A DNA stretch of 46,009 nt from Campylobacterota bacterium (lineage in GTDB: Bacteria; Campylobacterota; Campylobacteria; Campylobacterales; Sulfurovaceae), in assembly GCA_003252535.1 (NCBI GenBank), contig QKDN01000028.1, forward strand, positions 1 to 46,009. The letters run 5' to 3'. This document shows positions 28,883-45,309 of the stretch, in pieces (positions within the stretch are counted from its first letter, which is position 1; each line of letters begins with the position of its first letter). Below the pieces are notes generated by a model that was not told where the DNA came from, searched no databases, and worked only from the letters and a program-made list of their open reading frames with translations. The translations under genes were made by a program, and so were the position numbers.

Positions 28883-29380
28883 TCAAATCACCAAATCAAT
28901 ATCATAAAACCGTAGAATCTCATGCAAAGACTCTTTGGATATCGTATTGCCCCATACCCTGCCGGACGGATTGTTGTACCTCACGAGGATTGTATGATCC
29001 GGGGCATCTATGCCGTAGCGGGTCAATATATCTATACAATGATGTGTAAAGTCGAATGGCAAATCGGTATTGTCACCATACATATCGACAATACCGATCT
29101 CTATGACATATTCGATAAGTATAGTAAAAGTATCCATTAACTCTTCAGGGATTATCGAGACGATATCCCCCGGCAATCCATCACCTCTGCCCGTGATGGT
29201 TATTTGCACCCCTGCCTGTTCCCAATCAGGCAGACTCTTAACGATACATATTGAAACCAAATGAGATAACAGGGTATCAATATCCTTATGCCGTATATCG
29301 AAAACCTTGCAGAATTTCCACAAGCAGATTGCACCGTATACTTGTAATAGTCGTGTATTCAACTCATTCAGGGCTATCAT
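28883..29380 (-). CDS. 165-aa protein of unknown function coupled to the hydrolase
   Basis: Its ATG overlaps the stop of the alpha/beta-hydrolase gene (ATGA). It has no signal peptide or TM segment and is acidic, with mixed strand and helix. The second half contains FDFTHHCIDILTRYGIDAPDHT. No family recognised. Base composition is lower in GC than the housekeeping genes around it, which with the hydrolase may indicate acquired DNA. Confidence 0.55.
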   Translation of the reverse strand: MIALNELNTRLLQVYGAICLWKFCKVFDIRHKDIDTLLSHLVSICIVKSLPDWEQAGVQITITGRGDGLPGDIVSIIPEELMDTFTILIEYVIEIGIVDMYGDNTDLPFDFTHHCIDILTRYGIDAPDHTILVRYNNPSGRVWGNTISKESLHEILRFYDIDLVI

Positions 29381-30360
29381 TTCCCCAATACCCTCATAAA
29401 GAACAAACCGCTTTGTGCGTAGAACTGTTGCTTGGTGATAAAGATAGTCTGATGGTCGGCATCTTTATCCTCGTTGAAGTACTTGCGAGGAGAGGCAAAC
29501 CGATCGAACAGACTCTTGCCACGCCGGATGGCTATGAGCGGGTCATGGGAGCCGTGGGTGAAGAAGACGGGTATCCGGATACTCTTTGCCAATGTTACCG
29601 AAGAAGCCTTGGTGATATCCAGATCATAAAATACCTTCATACTTTTCTCAAATATCCTGTAGATAGGTACACCGATAAGATCGCCGAAGATACTTTTGGA
29701 TTTATCCTCCAGTATACCATCCAAAGCATCGAAGGTCGCAACCAGAACCATCGCTTTGAAATCATACTTTGAAGTATAGGCGCTGCGTACGGCAAAGGCA
29801 CCTCCGAGCGAATATCCCCATAAAAGAAGTCTGCCGGTATTGACCGAATGATGCAGCGCGGCATCTTCGATCACCCTGTCGACATACTCCTGCTCATGCA
29901 CTTTGGTACCGTAATAGAGCCGATGCAGCGCGCTTTCTCCATGCGCAGGGATATCGATCAGTATACAGTCGAAGCCCAGAGCAGTGTAACGCTCAGCCAT
30001 AGGAAGAAGGTCTTCCTTGCGACCGTTTTTGCCATGCAGCATCACTATCGTAGCATCTCTGGTGGAGAAATCGACTCTGCCTTCCATCGCGCTCACCTCC
30101 CTCCTCACTTTCTGCGCTCTGTCTGAAAGTCCCCGTGTATCGTCCAGTGAAACAAAAAGGTAGGGGATGCGCTCTTTCTGTGTAGAGTGGTGGGTGATAC
30201 GCATACTGAACTTCCGGGGATCGTCCAGTCTGATCCGGTGATAGTTCTCAAGCGGTTTTCTCTCAGGGGAGACCACACGCTCCTGGGCGTAGAAAAACAG
30301 TACGAGAGGTAAAAAAAGGAGAAAAATGAAGATGATTTTTTTGACTGGAGGCCTCTGCAT
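29377..30360 (-). CDS. Membrane-anchored alpha/beta hydrolase
   Basis: 327 aa from ATG 30360 (a GTG lies one codon earlier). N-terminal TM or uncleaved signal (about 8-24) then a periplasmic-facing hydrolase fold: VMLHGKNG oxyanion strand, nucleophile S184 in GYSLGG, D273 in HGSHDPL and H303 in DADHQT form the triad. It resembles YqkD/Bem46-type lipases or esterases; the substrate is unknown. It overlaps the downstream 165-aa gene by four bases. Confidence 0.85.
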   Translation of the reverse strand: MQRPPVKKIIFIFLLFLPLVLFFYAQERVVSPERKPLENYHRIRLDDPRKFSMRITHHSTQKERIPYLFVSLDDTRGLSDRAQKVRREVSAMEGRVDFSTRDATIVMLHGKNGRKEDLLPMAERYTALGFDCILIDIPAHGESALHRLYYGTKVHEQEYVDRVIEDAALHHSVNTGRLLLWGYSLGGAFAVRSAYTSKYDFKAMVLVATFDALDGILEDKSKSIFGDLIGVPIYRIFEKSMKVFYDLDITKASSVTLAKSIRIPVFFTHGSHDPLIAIRRGKSLFDRFASPRKYFNEDKDADHQTIFITKQQFYAQSGLFFMRVLGK

Positions 30361-30400
30361 CACATGACCCTGCCGATGTGATACAGCCCCGGCAACGGTA

Positions 30401-32506
30401 TCACCCGCAGGCGATCTGCCCGTCTACAGGCATCACCGTCACCTTGAGCGACTTGAATCGGGCGGTCATGATGAGCTCGTCGTGTTCGTCGCCGAATATC
30501 GCGTTGATGCGCGACTTGCTGTGGTGGAAGGTACAGAAGAGGGTGCGCGGTCTGATCTTGTCGGTGTAGATGACACGCAGCGGGTTGGTCTCGCCGTGGA
30601 TCGTGCGGAGCATGGCGAACTCTCCGAGCTTCCCTTCATCCTCCAGTGGAGCGAGGAGGATATCCTCGTCGTACTTGGTATCGAGCTTCTTGCTCCGCTT
30701 GGTCTGCGCCGCGTTGTTGTAGTGGGCGAGGGTACGGCCTGTCGTGAGGTAGTAGCCATCGAGCGAATCGTGGTAGAAGCTCTTGTCAAGGATCTCCTGC
30801 ACCATCCCGCGCGGCTCATACTGATGGTAGTGGTACTCGCCCAGACCGTCGGGGGTACGGAAGTCGAGGAGGTGGAGCACAGGCGTATCCTCATGGTGGA
30901 TAGGCCACTGCATCCCTCTTTTCCTATGCCGTTCGAGCCTGTAGTAGTCCGCCCCGCTGAATCTCTTCGGTGCGACCTTCTGCACCTCTTCCCACACCTG
31001 CTGCGAGCTCCCGAAGCCGAAGTCCCTGCCGAGCTTCTCGCTCATCATGGAGAGCACTTCCCAGTCGTCGGGGAGGTCGCTGTGGACGAGGGGCTGTGAG
31101 AGGTGGAGGCGGCGCATGGCGTTGATATAGACCCCGGTCTTCTCATAGGCGCTCTTGACACCGATGACGATATCTGCCTGAGCTGCGATATCGGTCATGA
31201 AGAGCTCCTGCACCATGATGAACTCCAGCTTGTCGAGAGCCTTTTTGATCTTGTTGATATTGGGGTGGATGTGGAGGATATCTTCGCCCATATTGAGCAG
31301 CGCTTTGATGCGGCCGCCCAGCATTGCGTCGATGAGCTGCGGGGTCATCAGACCCTCGACTTTGGGAGCCTGGTAGTCAGGAAGGTAGTATGGGAGACAT
31401 CCCATGTCACAGGCGCCCTGGACATTGTTCTGCCCCCGCAGCGGCATGAGACCTGCGCCGACCTTGCCGATATTGCCCGTCATGATCGCGAGATGGGTGA
31501 TCGCCATGACAGCGTAGGAGCCGTCGAGGTGCTCTGTGATCCCCAGACCCCAGAGGATCATCGATTTCTTGACCGCATACTCGCGGGCGATATTGGGGAT
31601 CATCTTGGCGAGGTTCTCGTACCCCTCGATATTTTTCATGAAGTTCGGGTTGGCATAGGGGTCGTTCAGTATCTTCTCTTTGAACTCCTCGAACCCTTTG
31701 GTACGGCTGGCGATGAAGCTCGGGTCATAGAGCTCCTCGTCGATGATGACATAGGCCATCATATTGAGGATCAGGAGGTTCGCCTCGTAGGGGATGATGC
31801 AGTTGTATTTCGCAAGCTTCGCCATCTTGGTCTCTCTCACATCGATGACGGCGAGGTTGTGATGGGTCTTGGCCATCTCGACGACACGGTTGGAGATGAT
31901 GGGGTGGGCTTCCATGATGTTCGAGCCGATGAGCACCATGAACTCCGCTTCGTAGATATCATTGTAGGGGTTGGTCGCCGCCCCTTCGCCGATGGTGGTG
32001 CGCATCCCCTTGAGCGACGGGGAGTGGCAGACGCGCGCGCAGTTGTCGACATGGGGTGAGTCCATCGTCTCGCGGCAGAACTTCTGGAAGGTATAGGCGC
32101 TCTCGCACGAGGTACGCGCCCCGCCGATGGCACAGAAGCTGTCGCCGCCGTGCGCCGCTTTGATCTCTCCGAGCTTCATCGCCGCTATCGAGGTGGCGGT
32201 ATCGACATCGCAGGTCATATAGTCGCCGTCGAAGGGGCTCAGTCTGCTCGCGAAAGCCTCACGGATATGGGGATTGCGATCAAGGAAGCTCCGTTTGATG
32301 CGGGGTTCCCTGATCCTGTCCTCCGCCTCTACAAAGTCATACCCATACTTCCCCTTGATACAGAGCTTCCCCTGGGAGACGACGCCGTCCTGCTGGGCAT
32401 AGACCTTGACGATCCTGTTGTCCTCGACCACTCCGGTGATATCGCACCCTACACCGCAGTAGGTACAGACGCTCTCTATCTCTTTGACACTTTTTGTTTT
32501 GATCAT
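30401..32506 (-). CDS. Molybdopterin formate dehydrogenase catalytic subunit (FdhF-like)
   Basis: 701 aa from ATG 32506, preceded by AAGGG; the open frame extends 15 codons more without support. A [4Fe-4S] site C14, C17, C21, C49 opens the protein, and NCARVCHSP places Cys160-His161 where FDH-H has Sec-His. MTGNIGKVGAGLMPLRGQNNVQGACDMG and the C-terminal molybdopterin domain (DGYYLTTGRTLAHYNN) are typical. It oxidises formate to CO2 or the reverse. It has no twin-arginine signal, so it is cytoplasmic, and no electron-transfer or membrane subunit lies beside it. Confidence 0.88.
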   Translation of the reverse strand: MIKTKSVKEIESVCTYCGVGCDITGVVEDNRIVKVYAQQDGVVSQGKLCIKGKYGYDFVEAEDRIREPRIKRSFLDRNPHIREAFASRLSPFDGDYMTCDVDTATSIAAMKLGEIKAAHGGDSFCAIGGARTSCESAYTFQKFCRETMDSPHVDNCARVCHSPSLKGMRTTIGEGAATNPYNDIYEAEFMVLIGSNIMEAHPIISNRVVEMAKTHHNLAVIDVRETKMAKLAKYNCIIPYEANLLILNMMAYVIIDEELYDPSFIASRTKGFEEFKEKILNDPYANPNFMKNIEGYENLAKMIPNIAREYAVKKSMILWGLGITEHLDGSYAVMAITHLAIMTGNIGKVGAGLMPLRGQNNVQGACDMGCLPYYLPDYQAPKVEGLMTPQLIDAMLGGRIKALLNMGEDILHIHPNINKIKKALDKLEFIMVQELFMTDIAAQADIVIGVKSAYEKTGVYINAMRRLHLSQPLVHSDLPDDWEVLSMMSEKLGRDFGFGSSQQVWEEVQKVAPKRFSGADYYRLERHRKRGMQWPIHHEDTPVLHLLDFRTPDGLGEYHYHQYEPRGMVQEILDKSFYHDSLDGYYLTTGRTLAHYNNAAQTKRSKKLDTKYDEDILLAPLEDEGKLGEFAMLRTIHGETNPLRVIYTDKIRPRTLFCTFHHSKSRINAIFGDEHDELIMTARFKSLKVTVMPVDGQIACG

Positions 32507-32621
32507 ATCGAAACCCTTTTGCTTGTTGGACCTCCTGAGCGAGTTTGGCAAGAGGTCTGTCGGAACTTTGGAACGGTAGTTTTAACCTATTTTTGCTTAA
32601 AGCTCTTTATGGGTATATATC

Positions 32622-38997: not shown

Positions 38998-39822
38998 TTA
39001 TATCCACAGATTGTCTATAAGCCTTGTCGTCCCTACCCATGCGGCGACGAGGATGATGGTATTGCCGATCTCCACCTCCTCCAGGGGTCTGAACGCGCGG
39101 TCGACGATCTCCACATACTCTATATCGGTCTCGTTCTCGAGTATTTCCCGCATCACCGCTTCGATCTTCTGCGAACTTCTCTCGCCGGTCATCACCATCT
39201 TCGTAGCGCGTTTGAGCGAGCGGGAGAGGCTGAGGGCTCTTTGTTTTTCTTCGGGGGAGAGGTAGACATTGCGGCTGCTGAGCGCGAGTCCCGAGCCGTC
39301 GCGGACGATCTCGCACGGCACGATGCGGCAGCGGAGGAAATAGGTGCGCGCCATCTGCATGATGAGGGCGAGCTGCTGGGCATCCTTCTTGCCGAAATAG
39401 GCGGCGGTAGGGTTGGCGAGGTTGAGGAGCTTCATCACTACCTGGAGCATCCCGTCGAAGTGTCCCGGTCTCCTGTTCCCCTCGAGTATGTACCCCATCG
39501 TCGCAGGCGCCATGACGGCGAGCTCGTCCCTCTCGTACATGATCCCGGGGGTCGGCATGAAGAGGATATCGACCCCGGCGCGCTTGCATATCTGCATATC
39601 GGCTTCGATCTTGCGGGGGTATTTGTCGAGGTCTTCCCCTTCGAGGAACTGTGTGGGATTGACGAATATCGAGACGATGACGAACCCGTTCTCCTCTTTG
39701 GCCCTGCGGATAAGCGACAGGTGCCCTTCGTGGAGCGCCCCCATCGTGGGGACGAACCCGACGCTCCCTGCTATCCCGTCTCTGGCCGCCATGAGCTCCG
39801 CTGTGGTCTCTATTACCCTCAT
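38998..39822 (-). CDS. panC: Pantothenate synthetase
   Basis: 274 aa from ATG 39822 (GAGAGAGGAT upstream); an ATG six codons earlier lacks a ribosome site. GFVPTMGALHEGH holds the HIGH-type motif (31-34); NPTQFLEGEDLDKYPR, FGKKDAQQL and LALSSRNVYLS complete the family set. It joins pantoate and beta-alanine using ATP on the way to coenzyme A. No panB or panD is adjacent. Confidence 0.95.
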   Translation of the reverse strand: MRVIETTAELMAARDGIAGSVGFVPTMGALHEGHLSLIRRAKEENGFVIVSIFVNPTQFLEGEDLDKYPRKIEADMQICKRAGVDILFMPTPGIMYERDELAVMAPATMGYILEGNRRPGHFDGMLQVVMKLLNLANPTAAYFGKKDAQQLALIMQMARTYFLRCRIVPCEIVRDGSGLALSSRNVYLSPEEKQRALSLSRSLKRATKMVMTGERSSQKIEAVMREILENETDIEYVEIVDRAFRPLEEVEIGNTIILVAAWVGTTRLIDNLWI

Positions 39823-39988
39823 CACTATCCTCTCTCTCATGATTTTTGGGTATAATAGTATCCAATTTAATCAAAAATATCACCTACATAGATTCGAGTT
39901 AAACCAAATCTTTAAGTGCAATAATAAATCGCTATTTTATTTTTTCTATCGCACAATGCGGGTGTAAACTACGAGGGAAGAGAGAGAC

Positions 39989-42900
39989 ATGAAACAACAC
40001 TACGCGCTTGGGATCGATATCGGCTCGACGACGGTCAAATATGTCGTCTGTGACAGTGAGTTCAATATCATAGCCAAAGAGTACACGCCGCACGATACCA
40101 AACAGGCAGAGACCCTGCTAAGACTCCTCGAAAAGCTTGAAGCCGAACACCCCGAGATATACAACAACATCGAAAAAGCCTACATCACAGGTTCCGGCGC
40201 CACCCGCATCGCCCCGCGCATCAATGCCCGCTTCGTCCAGGAGGTCAACGCCGTCGTCCTCGCGGTCGAGCATCATCACCCCGATGTCAACGCCGTCATC
40301 GAGCTCGGCGGACAGGACGCCAAGATCATCCACTTCAAAGAGGGTGAGGACGGCAAGAAGACCGCCCAGACCTCGATGAACGACAAGTGCGCCTCGGGTA
40401 CGGGTGCGACCATCGAGAAGTGTACGATGAAAGTGGGTCTGGAGAGCGCGGATGTCCAGAACCTCAAGTTCGAGACCGACAAGCTCCACCATGTCGCCGC
40501 CAAGTGCGGGGTCTTCGCCGAGACCGATATCGTCAACCTCGTCAAGACCTCCGTCCCCTCCAACGAGATCATGAACTCCCTCGCCGACGCGATCGTCATG
40601 CAGAACCTCACCGTCCTCACCCGAGGCAATACCCTCATGCCCAAGGTACTCCTCCTCGGCGGTCCCAATACCTACCTCCCGTTCCTCCAGGACTGCTGGC
40701 GTATGCGTATCAGCGAGCTGTGGGATGAGAGAGGGGTAGAGTACGACAAAGAGCAGCTCTCAGAGCTCGTCCTCGTCCCTCAGAACTCCCAGTACTACGC
40801 GGCGTTCGGCGCAGTGGTATTCGGCGAGGGGGAAGCGAACAACGACCAGAAGTTCAAAGGGAGCCTTGAGCTCAAGACCATGATCCGCTCCGGCGCGGTA
40901 CACAACGACTCCAGCAAGGATACGCCGCTCGTGGCGAGCGCCGAGGAGCTCGAAGCATTCAAGTCAAAATACTCCATCCCTCCGTTCGTCCCAGCCAAAC
41001 TCACCGAAAAGACCGAGTGCTACCTCGGGATCGACGGGGGCTCCACCAGCTCCAAGGCGGTCGTCGTCGACAGGGACGGCAACCTCCTCCTCAAGGTCTA
41101 CCAGCTCTCCAAAGGGAACCCGATCCAGGATACCAAGGAGATGCTCGAGAAGATCGCCGCATACGACAAGGACGGTTTCCTCGATATCAGGGGTCTGGGG
41201 ACGACCGGGTATGCCGCCGATGTACTCGAAGGGGCGCTCAAGGCCGATGCCAACATCATCGAGACCATCGCCCACATGAAGAGCGCGCAGGCGGTCTTCG
41301 GCGAGAGTATCGATATCATCTGTGATATCGGCGGACAGGATATCAAGGTGCTCTTCATGGAGAACGGCATGATGAAGAACTTCCGTCTCTCCAACCAGTG
41401 CTCGGCGGGCAACGGTACGCTGCTCCAGAGTATGTCCAAGCAGTTCGGCGTCACGGTCGAGGAGTATGCCGATGTCGCTTTCGATGCGACCCAGGCGCCG
41501 AAGTTCAACTACGGCTGCGCCGTCTTCCTCGATACCGACAGGGTCAACTTCCAGAAAGAGGGGTATACCAAAGAGGAGCTCTTCGCAGGGATCGCCAAGG
41601 TACTTCCCAAGAATGTCTGGCAGTATGTCGTCCAGGCTCCCAACCTCGCGGCATTCGGCAACCACTTCGTCCTCCAGGGAGGGACACAGTACAACCTTGC
41701 AGCCCTCAAAGCACAGGTCGACTATATCAAAGAGCTCGTCCCCGGTGCGACAGTCGATGTCCACCCGTACCCCGGTGAAGCGGGAGCCTACGGCGCGGCG
41801 ATCGAGGCGAGGGATGTGGTCGCGGCGCGCGGCTACCATTCGTTCGTAGGGATGGAGGAGGCTCTGGGGCTCTCCTACACCTCACTCACCGACGAATCGA
41901 CCAGATGTAATTTCTGCCCGATCCTCTGTTCGCGTACCTTTATCGATACCAAGACGCCCAATTCCGAATCGGTGCGCTACATCGCCGGGTTCGCCTGTGA
42001 GAGCGGTACGGTGGAGTCCCCCGAAGCCCTCAAAGCCCTCCAGAAAGAACGGCTCTCCCTCCAGAACGAGACCCCGAACCTCGTCAAGAAGGAGGCCAAA
42101 GAGCTCTTCGCCCACGGCTACGATCTCCCCGCCGCTCCTACTGCCGATACACTCATCACCCGTCAGCAGGTCAAGATGACCCTCGGCGGCTGGGGGCCGA
42201 CCATCCGCAAGAAGGTGATCAGACCTTTCGAGACGAGCTCGCAGGAGGCAAAAGAGCGCAGAAGCAAGCTCATCGTCGGTATCCCCAAAGTGCTCAATAT
42301 CTACTCCGTCGCGCCGTTCCTCCGCACCTATCTCGAAGCGCTGGGGATCGATCCGAAGAACATCAAATTCTCGGGTTACTCCAACGAAGATATGTTCCTC
42401 GAGGGGGCGCGCTACGGTTCGGTCGACTCATGCTACCCCGCAAAAGTAGCGCAGTCGCATGTCTACTCGCTCCTCTACGGCAAGAAGTTCCACAAGATGC
42501 ATTTCGACTACCTGTGGTTCCCGTCGACCCTCTCGCTCCCTGCGTTCATCGTCAAGTCGATGGGGCAGACCGCCTGCCCGATCATCACCGGGACACCGCG
42601 CGTCGTCTACTCCGCCTTCACCAAAGAACAGGATCTCTTCACGAAGAAAGGGATCGAGTATATCGACGATTCGCTCCCCTTTGCCAACAAACTCCTCCTT
42701 GAAAAGGAGCTCTTCGGCACATGGGGCGAAAGACTCGGCATCACTGCGGATGAGAACCGCTGGGCGGTAGAGCAGGGGTGGAAGGCGCTCGAAGCGAACG
42801 AGAAGGAGATCATGGCAGAAGGGCGCGCGATACTCGACAGCGCTGTCGCCAACGACGAGATCGTGATCCTACTGCTCGGCAGACCCTACCACTCCGATCC

Positions 42901-43378
42901 GGGGATCAACCACGAAGTGCTCGACGAGTTCCAGTCGCTCGGGTTCAAGACCATCTCGATGCGCTCCATCCCCAAGGACAAAGAGTATCTCGACCGGTTC
43001 TTCGGCGATGAGCTGCGTGATGGATATATCGAGGACTACTTCGATATCCGCGATGTGTGGCCCGAGAACTATTCGGTCAACTCGTCGCAGAAGGTATGGG
43101 CGGCGAAGTTCGCAGCGCGCCACCCCAATGTCGCCGTGCTCGACCTCTCGAGCTTCAAATGCGGGCATGATGCCCCTACCTACTCGATCATCGACAAGAT
43201 ACTCGGCGCCAGCCGTACGCCGCACCTGACGCTGCACGATATCGATGCGAACAAGCCGGGCGGCTCGATCAAGATCAGGGTCAAGACCTTCGCCTACACC
43301 CTCGATCAATACAGGGAGACGCTGATCAAAGAGAAGCAGCTCCAGCAGCAGAACAGTCTCAATGAAGCAACAGCATAG
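39989..43378 (+). CDS. Double-ASKHA acyl-CoA dehydratase activase fused to a DUF2229/HgdB-like region
   Basis: 1129 aa. Residues 5-270 and 343-620 are two BadF/HgdC-type ATPase domains, each starting with GID(I/G)GS(T/T)S or similar and each with the two cysteines that hold the bridging [4Fe-4S] cluster in HgdC: C134 and C173, then C471 and C510. Both domains keep GGQD. The fusion thus could form the activase dimer within one chain. A CxxCxxxC motif (C640, C643, C647) follows, then a long DUF2229-type region with YSNEDMFLEGARYGSVDSCYPAK, TACPII and SSFKCGHD. Such activases use ATP to push an electron to very low potential. Next gene 12 bases on is the likely target. Substrate unknown. Confidence 0.85.
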   Translation: MKQHYALGIDIGSTTVKYVVCDSEFNIIAKEYTPHDTKQAETLLRLLEKLEAEHPEIYNNIEKAYITGSGATRIAPRINARFVQEVNAVVLAVEHHHPDVNAVIELGGQDAKIIHFKEGEDGKKTAQTSMNDKCASGTGATIEKCTMKVGLESADVQNLKFETDKLHHVAAKCGVFAETDIVNLVKTSVPSNEIMNSLADAIVMQNLTVLTRGNTLMPKVLLLGGPNTYLPFLQDCWRMRISELWDERGVEYDKEQLSELVLVPQNSQYYAAFGAVVFGEGEANNDQKFKGSLELKTMIRSGAVHNDSSKDTPLVASAEELEAFKSKYSIPPFVPAKLTEKTECYLGIDGGSTSSKAVVVDRDGNLLLKVYQLSKGNPIQDTKEMLEKIAAYDKDGFLDIRGLGTTGYAADVLEGALKADANIIETIAHMKSAQAVFGESIDIICDIGGQDIKVLFMENGMMKNFRLSNQCSAGNGTLLQSMSKQFGVTVEEYADVAFDATQAPKFNYGCAVFLDTDRVNFQKEGYTKEELFAGIAKVLPKNVWQYVVQAPNLAAFGNHFVLQGGTQYNLAALKAQVDYIKELVPGATVDVHPYPGEAGAYGAAIEARDVVAARGYHSFVGMEEALGLSYTSLTDESTRCNFCPILCSRTFIDTKTPNSESVRYIAGFACESGTVESPEALKALQKERLSLQNETPNLVKKEAKELFAHGYDLPAAPTADTLITRQQVKMTLGGWGPTIRKKVIRPFETSSQEAKERRSKLIVGIPKVLNIYSVAPFLRTYLEALGIDPKNIKFSGYSNEDMFLEGARYGSVDSCYPAKVAQSHVYSLLYGKKFHKMHFDYLWFPSTLSLPAFIVKSMGQTACPIITGTPRVVYSAFTKEQDLFTKKGIEYIDDSLPFANKLLLEKELFGTWGERLGITADENRWAVEQGWKALEANEKEIMAEGRAILDSAVANDEIVILLLGRPYHSDPGINHEVLDEFQSLGFKTISMRSIPKDKEYLDRFFGDELRDGYIEDYFDIRDVWPENYSVNSSQKVWAAKFAARHPNVAVLDLSSFKCGHDAPTYSIIDKILGASRTPHLTLHDIDANKPGGSIKIRVKTFAYTLDQYRETLIKEKQLQQQNSLNEATA

Positions 43379-43390
43379 GAGGAGAAGACC

Positions 43391-44899
43391 ATGAGCCAGT
43401 GCAACAGTATCAAACCACAGGAGAGCAACGGAAGTCTGAGCTATCTCCATCAGGACAAGATGCAGTGGAGAGACACTGCCAACAAACGCTACAACAAAGC
43501 TGACAAGGAGAACACGACCCTCCTCATCGGCGGTCTGACGATCCTCCAGGACAAGCTGATGATGGCTTCGCTCCAGTCGCTCGGCGAGAAGTATATCGCC
43601 CTGCCCAACCCCGATTTCGATTCGTTCCGCAAGGGGAAGATATACGGCAACAGGGGACAGTGTAACCCGACCTACTTCACGGTGGGCAACCTCGTGAAGT
43701 ATCTCCAGGATCTCCGCGCAGAGACCGGGATGAGCTCGCAGGAGATCGTCGACAAGTACGCCTATGTCACCGCCGGCGGATGCGGGCCGTGCAGGTTCGG
43801 GATGTATATCACCGAGTACCGCAAGGCGCTCAAGGATGCGGGATTTGACGGCTTCAGGGTCTTCAGTTTCCAGCACAACGAGGGGATATTCCAGGCCGAG
43901 GACGGCGAGGGGGAGAGCCTGAAGTTCTCTCCGATGTTCTTCATCACCCTGATCAAAGCGGTCATCATCGGTGATATCATCAACCTCCTCACCTACAAGA
44001 TGCGACCGTACGAAGTGGTCAAAGGGGCGACCGATGAAGCAGTAGCCGAGTGCTACGAGATCATCGCCGATGCTTTCAAAGAGCACAGGAACCTCACATA
44101 CGCTATGTACAAGTGCCGCAAAGTGCTCGAAAAAGTAGATCTCGACAGGCTCCAGCCCAAGGCGAAGGTGATGATCATGGGAGAGTTCTGGGCGGCGATG
44201 ACAGAGGGTGAGGGGAACTACAACCTCCACAGATTCCTCGAGTCCGAAGGGGCGGAGTGTATCCCGCAGCCGATCATCAACCGTCTCATGCTCACGATCT
44301 GGGAAGCGGAGTATATCGACAACAAAGTAGCCGACCTCGAGGTGGACGAGAGCGTGAAGCGGTTCGACTTCACCCACGCAAAAGGGAAGCTCAATATGGC
44401 TCTGGCGCGTGTCGCGATCAAGTTCTACTTCAACCTCTACGCCAAAGCGATCGGTCTCAATGACTACGATGTCCCCGATATCGAGAAGCTCTCCAAGCTC
44501 AGCCGCGTCTACTACCCGCTCGATGCGGAGGGGGGCGAAGGGCACCTCGAGGTAGCCCACCTTCTGGAAAGTATCAAGCACAAGCTCGCCCACCTCGTCA
44601 TCTCGGTCAAGCCGTTCGGCTGTATGCCTTCATCGGCAGTATCGGACGGCATCCAGCCCCTCATCACCGCCCGCTATCCCTCGGCGAACTTCCTCTCGAT
44701 AGAGACTTCGGGCGAAGGCGCGGCGAACTTCTACTCCCGCGTCCAGATGGCGCTCTTCAAGGCGAAGCAGGCCGCCAAGGAGGAGTTCGACGTCCTCAAA
44801 ATACCCGAGCATATCCCCGCCAGGGTCAACGACTACAAGTTCCAGCCAAGGCATGGTGCGACCGGTACAGCGGCGAGACTGGTGGAGAGTATTTCGTAA
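43391..44899 (+). CDS. HgdB-like 2-hydroxyacyl-CoA dehydratase-family protein
   Basis: 502 aa with GGAGGAG before the ATG, in operon with the activase fusion. It carries conserved cysteines in GQCNPTY (C91), GGCGPCRFGMY (C131, C134) and KPFGCMPSSAVSDG (C411), as in 2-hydroxyacyl-CoA dehydratase/benzoyl-CoA reductase-type subunits that hold [4Fe-4S] or double-cubane clusters. Members receive electrons from an ATP-driven activase and reduce a difficult substrate. There is only one such subunit and no CoA-transferase, dehydrogenase or benzoate gene nearby, so it may be closer to the double-cubane reductases than to a fermentative dehydratase; that is inference. Confidence 0.78.
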   Translation: MSQCNSIKPQESNGSLSYLHQDKMQWRDTANKRYNKADKENTTLLIGGLTILQDKLMMASLQSLGEKYIALPNPDFDSFRKGKIYGNRGQCNPTYFTVGNLVKYLQDLRAETGMSSQEIVDKYAYVTAGGCGPCRFGMYITEYRKALKDAGFDGFRVFSFQHNEGIFQAEDGEGESLKFSPMFFITLIKAVIIGDIINLLTYKMRPYEVVKGATDEAVAECYEIIADAFKEHRNLTYAMYKCRKVLEKVDLDRLQPKAKVMIMGEFWAAMTEGEGNYNLHRFLESEGAECIPQPIINRLMLTIWEAEYIDNKVADLEVDESVKRFDFTHAKGKLNMALARVAIKFYFNLYAKAIGLNDYDVPDIEKLSKLSRVYYPLDAEGGEGHLEVAHLLESIKHKLAHLVISVKPFGCMPSSAVSDGIQPLITARYPSANFLSIETSGEGAANFYSRVQMALFKAKQAAKEEFDVLKIPEHIPARVNDYKFQPRHGATGTAARLVESIS

Positions 44900-45000: not shown

Positions 45001-45309
45001 ATGTATACCTTGACGATCAATGTCAAAGACAGCGTTGTTGACAATATACTCTATATACTCAAAAATCTCTCCGATGTCAAAATAGTGGATCAAAAGAAAG
45101 TGGACGAACAGACCAAGCTCGACCAGGTAAAAGGGATACTTAAAGGGAGGATCAAAGATCCCGTAGAGTATCAAAGAGAACTGCGTAATGAATGGGAACA
45201 CAGGACAGAATGGCATCAAGAAATTCTTGATGAGAGAAGAGAATACTACGAAGATGGCAAAATCAATGTCCTAAGCTTTGATGAGTTCAAAGCTTCACTT
45301 GGAAAGTGA
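45001..45309 (+). CDS. Orphan antitoxin-like protein
   Basis: 102 aa. An N-terminal MYTLTINVKDSVVDNILYILKNL resembles a ribbon-helix-helix or RelB/ParD-type start, followed by a charged helical tail (EYQRELRNEWEHRTEWHQ), as in type II antitoxins that bind DNA and wrap a toxin. Its TGA overlaps a GTG (GTGA), the usual antitoxin-toxin junction, but the toxin frame stops after six codons. The weak ribosome site AAGAAG lies upstream. Confidence 0.55.
   Translation: MYTLTINVKDSVVDNILYILKNLSDVKIVDQKKVDEQTKLDQVKGILKGRIKDPVEYQRELRNEWEHRTEWHQEILDERREYYEDGKINVLSFDEFKASLGK

Follow-up and report, generated by a model that had tools for sequence, protein, structure and literature searches.

Analysis of a 46,009-nucleotide stretch of DNA from a Campylobacterota bacterium of the Sulfurovaceae (contig QKDN01000028.1 of assembly GCA_003252535.1; the whole stretch is hereafter called the window) revealed two adjacent open reading frames (ORFs), A and B, separated by 12 bp with B downstream, both exactly where a first-pass annotation of the same DNA had placed them. 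That annotation had proposed an undescribed radical reductase made of a one-chain activase and an HgdB-like partner. Here we computed the domains of the pair (Table 1), the conservation of its cysteines, the homology of its reductase halves, the predicted 2-hydroxyacyl-CoA dehydratase (HAD)-type fold of B, the co-occurrence of the two genes and their order.

Table 1. Features of the A-B locus, in window coordinates.
Feature	Position	Strand	Evidence
ORF A, PlsA-like, 1129 aa	39989-43378	+	Act1-Act2-(4-Cys motif)-Red1 order
Act1, first ASKHA activase domain (about A 5-300)	40001-40888	+	C134, C173; MbdP/MbdQ matches, second PF01869 stretch
Act2, second ASKHA activase domain (about A 346-607)	41024-41809	+	C471, C510; best PF01869 stretch
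Four-cysteine motif C640-x2-C643-x3-C647 ... C670, between Act2 and Red1	41906-41998	+	candidate [4Fe-4S] site; invariant 24/24
Red1, DUF2229 reductase half (A 755-1112)	42251-43324	+	PF09989; invariant C815, C863, C1058
ORF B, PlsR-like Red2 subunit, 502 aa	43391-44899	+	invariant C91, C134, C411; predicted fold

Domain searches of ORF A identified two BcrAD_BadFG (PF01869) stretches (E 1.2e-69), DUF2229 (PF09989) at residues 763-993 (E 3.4e-42) and a CoA_E_activ match at 346-605 (NCBIfam); the CxxCxxxC motif predicted for this chain (C640/643/647) was present as well. The sequence matches of Act1 were MbdP and MbdQ, over residues 5-225, and Act2 aligned over residues 342-615 with HgdC-, HadI- and MbdQ-type activators at a VIA-align Z of about 20. 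The predicted model of chain A (predicted template modelling score, pTM, 0.62) was weaker than that of chain B, and its Foldseek and VIA-align lists were taken up by ASKHA proteins and so covered its activase part. ORF B had no Pfam match, even at E 10, and no NCBIfam match, and profiles of B and of DUF2229 found no significant match among solved structures (BzdN at E 0.38 for DUF2229). For chain B, AlphaFold2 gave a model (pTM 0.82) that bore out the HgdB-like partner: its best ten structural matches all belong to the HAD, benzoyl-CoA reductase (BCR) and double-cubane-cluster protein (DCCP) family, the first eight with Z 9.2-10.5 (HadC-, DCCP-, MbdN- and BzdN-type subunits), and the first unrelated row had Z 6.4.

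Aligning the window pair with split and fused relatives across the family (24 sequences for A and 23 for B), we found exactly 14 invariant cysteines, 11 in A (positions 134, 173, 471, 510, 640, 643, 647, 670, 815, 863 and 1058; 24/24) and three in B (positions 91, 134 and 411; 23/23). All 14 candidate cluster cysteines are common to the Sulfurovaceae pair, the Listeria-type proteins and the split pairs of Fusobacterium and Campylobacterota, and they include both cysteine pairs (C134/C173 and C471/C510) on which the proposal of a one-chain activase had been built. Four cysteines of B had also been singled out; all four are present and three are the invariant ones, but the fourth, C131, is kept in just 7 of the 23 diverse relatives. 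Like C221 and C242, it is conserved among close relatives and not across the wider family. The surroundings of the first cysteine are alike in the two reductase parts ('TVCYPAKLxH' around A815, 'CYPALLVI' around B91 in relatives), as are those of the last ('SFGCGIDAIT' around A1058, 'QPFGCLPNHI' around B411 in relatives). Alignment of DUF2229 with B by hhalign (probability 92.5, E 4.8e-7) set A815 beside B91, and the DUF2229 profile matched 18 of the 23 B-type sequences (best E 1.8e-6), the HGD-D profile three (best E 1.7e-5). Judged from these alignments, the DUF2229 part of A is homologous to chain B and each of these two halves has three invariant cysteines; the resulting map of 4 + 4 + 3 + 3 cysteines offers a concrete four-cluster model for the whole PlsA-like family.

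This map bears on whether the pair could instead be a DCCP or a BCR-like reductase of a small molecule or an aromatic. Class I BCR and DCCP likewise combine an ATP-driven pair of ASKHA activases with a related reductase fold; the Act domains match MbdP/MbdQ and DCCP-R, and in the structural comparison the model of B fits DCCP and BzdN/MbdN-type subunits about as closely as it does HadC. Their [8Fe-9S] site requires six cysteines in one subunit, Cys36/73/100/263/293/327 in BzdN (PMC11971306). Given that Red1 and B hold three family-invariant cysteines each, neither half has a six-cysteine double-cubane site that is kept throughout the family, and C131, C221 and C242 of B do not complete one across it. 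A reaction of either kind, both of which the first-pass annotation had listed among those of known relatives, is thus very unlikely.

The same arrangement is known from plasmalogen synthase, whose domains are Act1 and Act2 (activation) and Red1 and Red2 (reduction/dehydration), which is encoded by a plsA-plsR operon in Clostridium perfringens (CPE1194/CPE1195) and by one gene in Enterococcus (E. faecalis), Lactococcus (L. cremoris) and Bifidobacterium (B. longum), and whose expression in E. coli leads to plasmalogens (PMC12838417). As in the Listeria, Fusobacterium and Campylobacterota relatives, two BcrAD_BadFG domains and DUF2229 share one chain in the window. The Red2 half follows directly downstream as B, homologous to the C-terminus of the fused proteins, and both the activation and the reductase domains have conserved cysteines for Fe-S clusters. 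Alignment of A with the fused homologue of Listeria extends over the full length of A (E 6.6e-95, 27%), and split pairs outside the Sulfurovaceae have the same gene order. Listeria has plsA/plsR orthologues and makes plasmalogens according to a review (PMC9702350), and the BadFG-like, PrfA-regulated lmo0788 of an older study (PMC2679221) is probably the same gene as this fused homologue. The window pair thus resembles PlsA-PlsR in its Act1-Act2-Red1 and Red2 chains, in having two adjacent genes in that order and, judged on Listeria-type relatives, in its 14 invariant cysteines; it differs in its low identity to the Listeria type, its longer chains, the probable operon with lgt in related loci and its long-branch clade, limited here to Sulfurovaceae and close relatives.

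Ger (glycerol ester reductase) of Thermotoga maritima (Tmari_0479) and Desulfatibacillum alkenivorans is PlsA-like and yields alkyl ethers (PMC11150832, PMC8788747, PMC13274423), reducing ester to ether anaerobically in expression tests (PMC11150832, PMC13274423). Compared by its published description, it shares two activation domains and a PlsA-like architecture with the pair but consists of a single large chain, of about 150-160 kDa in D. alkenivorans, where the window has two genes. Sequence alone cannot separate Ger from PlsA (PMC13274423, PMC11868695); the choice between one and two activation domains, considered as a marker, did not discriminate them, since all relatives tested, the Listeria type included, have two. 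DUF2229 was also found in the control genomes of T. maritima and Lactococcus lactis.

Together, these data led us to read the pair, at a probability of roughly 0.7, as a divergent Sulfurovaceae-type PlsA-PlsR/Ger-like enzyme, whose activity would best be understood, by analogy, as the ATP-driven radical reduction of phospholipid esters by an Fe-S enzyme. The system is not undescribed, as had been supposed, given that its two-gene architecture is that of PlsA-PlsR (PMC12838417), related to Ger (PMC11150832, PMC13274423), and the reading of an open reaction largely gives way to a known one, phospholipid ester to vinyl or alkyl ether, assigned by relatedness. What is new is the divergent Sulfurovaceae branch.

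In the mechanism proposed here, the substrate (a lipid), the reaction (ester to ether) and the path of the electrons are carried over from published relatives. Going by fold, sequence and invariant cysteines, the two fused ASKHA domains of A would bind ATP and act as activase halves, with one [4Fe-4S] cluster bridging Act1 and Act2 through C134, C173, C471 and C510, and a second cluster, at C640/643/647/670, may serve as the entry point for electrons. The putative reductase core would be a pseudo-heterodimer of Red1 (C815/863/1058) and Red2, i.e. chain B (C91/134/411), each half predicted, by analogy with HAD, to carry a three-cysteine, site-differentiated cluster. ATP hydrolysis, as in that enzyme, would drive single low-potential electrons into the core, where a glycerophospholipid acyl ester would undergo radical (ketyl-type) reduction and then water loss or further reduction, presumably giving a vinyl ether (plasmalogen) or alkyl ether lipid at sn-1 or sn-2.

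The analogy raises the question of whether the pair is itself a HAD in a branch of amino-acid fermentation, as the automatic annotation of its relatives (2-hydroxyacyl-CoA dehydratase or acyl-CoA dehydratase activase) has it. HAD and its activator (HadI/HadBC, HgdC/HgdAB) also consist of an ASKHA activase with a bridging cluster and two homologous halves with three-cysteine sites, and the predicted fold of B matches HadC (Z 10.5). HAD, unlike the window pair, has a separate homodimeric activase, not one fused to DUF2229, together with a CoA substrate pocket and canonical HGD-D subunits, whereas B had no Pfam match and the host genome contains neither a canonical HGD-D (PF06050) protein nor another BcrAD_BadFG activase. 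CoA-ester pathway genes were absent among the window neighbours examined, no neighbour was conserved in other Campylobacterota, and no known fermentation or aromatic pathway accompanied the pair at the loci examined. We therefore consider a fermentative dehydratase very unlikely. With no other activase or HGD-D protein in the host, the pair looks self-sufficient.

Searching a set of 298 Campylobacterota genomes, we found B-like and DUF2229 proteins in the same 28. Of 56 related loci (identity 58-80%), nearly all have A upstream of B, and this order together with the shared 28/298 genomes indicates that the pairing is not due to chance. Close relatives come almost all from Sulfurovum and related Campylobacterota, in agreement with the chemolithotroph-type host that had been surmised. 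In one genome (G244; L109/L110) the A-like gene is broken into overlapping pieces of 714 and 359 aa and a different contig carries the B-like gene, i.e. the pair is unlinked or disrupted.

Examination of the neighbourhood showed that lgt (PF01790) lies directly upstream of A on the same strand in 37 of the 40 Sulfurovaceae loci with enough sequence, at a gap of -19 to 145 bp and sometimes overlapping the start of A, which makes an lgt-A-B operon likely in those loci. Examples are L047:3801-4610 and L114:4174-4974 (Sulfurovaceae loci L004-L057). This lgt is the sole one in complete genomes, G263, G221 and G225 among them. Lgt uses phosphatidylglycerol, so the lgt neighbourhood fits a phospholipid role for the pair. 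No conserved neighbour was found at the other Campylobacterota, Fusobacterium or Listeria-type loci examined.

In a maximum-likelihood tree the sequences fell into three groups. The first, a large PlsA-like clade with identities of 44-54% across most of it, takes in Listeria, Collinsella copy 1, Acetoanaerobium, Fusobacterium and most other Campylobacterota; the second consists of Haliovirga, Collinsella copy 2 and one Campylobacterota genome; and the third is the Sulfurovaceae clade. Its architecture and cysteines place the pair in the broad PlsA/Ger-like family, but it falls outside the canonical, Listeria-type PlsA clade. Several observations weigh against assigning it the PlsA/Ger reaction. 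The Sulfurovaceae clade falls outside the PlsA-like clades on a long branch of 4.47 with support 100/100, a placement to be read with the warning of the tool that long branches meet, and the window pair is ~26% identical to Listeria-type PlsA (26-28% to the PlsA-like clades), below the ~30% of canonical membership and below the cut-off of >30% used in published Ger screens (PMC13274423). Our link to PlsA/Ger was drawn through the Listeria homologue and the literature, not through verified PlsA/Ger sequences, and reports of ether lipids in Sulfurovum or this group were not found in the literature searched. In the window's own genome lgt sits elsewhere, not beside the pair. Since lgt is a housekeeping gene, its neighbourhood may also be incidental.

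The divergence would be accounted for if the Sulfurovaceae clade were a separate BCR/HAD-type ATP-driven reductase that has kept the machinery and left lipid chemistry for another substrate. Besides the long branch and low identity, the chains are extended (A 1129 vs about 980-1030 aa, B 502 vs about 405-460 aa), and DUF2229 relatives without PlsA architecture occur elsewhere: a Monoglobus three-gene set of DUF2229-like, dehydratase-like and single activase genes adjoining a TSCPD gene (L122:4995-8212) and a 1282-aa DUF2229-type protein of Paraclostridium without the Red2 cysteines (L121:5001-8849). A change of substrate is nevertheless unlikely, though less so than the readings set aside above, because the complete Act1-Act2-4Cys-Red1-Red2 architecture and all 14 cysteines are retained as in PlsA-like proteins and the probable operon with lgt points to a phospholipid; that none of the 298 genomes has both the Sulfurovaceae and the canonical type, as a shared function would lead one to expect, is weaker support. 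An intermediate reading, in which the Sulfurovaceae pair is a functionally separate PlsA/Ger-like branch coupled to Lgt by the operon in these chemolithoautotrophs, where it would for instance provide lipoprotein modification with ether-linked phosphatidylglycerol or else act on a different ester, we regard as somewhat speculative and on the whole also improbable.

Split PlsA-PlsR-like pairs of other Campylobacterota (L099-L104, L108, L111-L113 and L118) are 44-48% identical to the fused Listeria protein, and fused versions also occur within the phylum (L105 and L106). These split pairs are nearer to canonical PlsA than the window pair is, which suggests plasmalogen capacity in those genomes. 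If the PlsA-PlsR/Ger-like assignment of the window pair is true, Sulfurovum-type sulfur oxidisers, which abound at vents and seeps, would be expected to produce plasmalogens or alkyl ether lipids, bacterial ether-lipid biosynthesis would extend to a clade missed by identity-based screens (>30%), and this would bear on how ether lipids are read as environmental biomarkers. It also suggests that proteins of this architecture now annotated '2-hydroxyacyl-CoA dehydratase' or 'acyl-CoA dehydratase activase' would better be regarded as candidate lipid reductases.

Divergent from A in the window lies panC (38998-39840, minus strand), a CoA-precursor gene; the first-pass statement that no CoA pathway gene is nearby accordingly holds for CoA-ester catabolism and fails for CoA-precursor synthesis. 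We considered a pantothenate/CoA link and judged it incidental, panC in the window and panB at other loci both being on the opposite strand. A link to molybdate transport was likewise rejected: a minority of the Sulfurovaceae loci have modABC-like genes downstream, but on the opposite strand, and these are not operon partners (at L115:12108-15603 and similar loci, modABC/modE-like genes are convergent). On a plasmid of Sulfurovum mangrovi (L123:3729-6798), TonB-receptor and RND transporter genes flank a 2-hydroxyacyl-CoA dehydratase-like protein distinct from the pair, which is accompanied by an activase of its own and by 4Fe-4S proteins. Elsewhere in the window, the minus strand encodes a 716-aa molybdopterin oxidoreductase (30401-32551) adjoining an alpha/beta hydrolase gene (29377-30363), and seven tRNA genes (1868-2570; Asp, Val, Glu, Lys, Asp, Val, Lys), of which Asp, Val and Lys are duplicated. 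Downstream of B, a small plus-strand ORF (45001-45309) showed a weak match, below the cut-off, to PF09720 (putative addiction-module component; E 0.00038).

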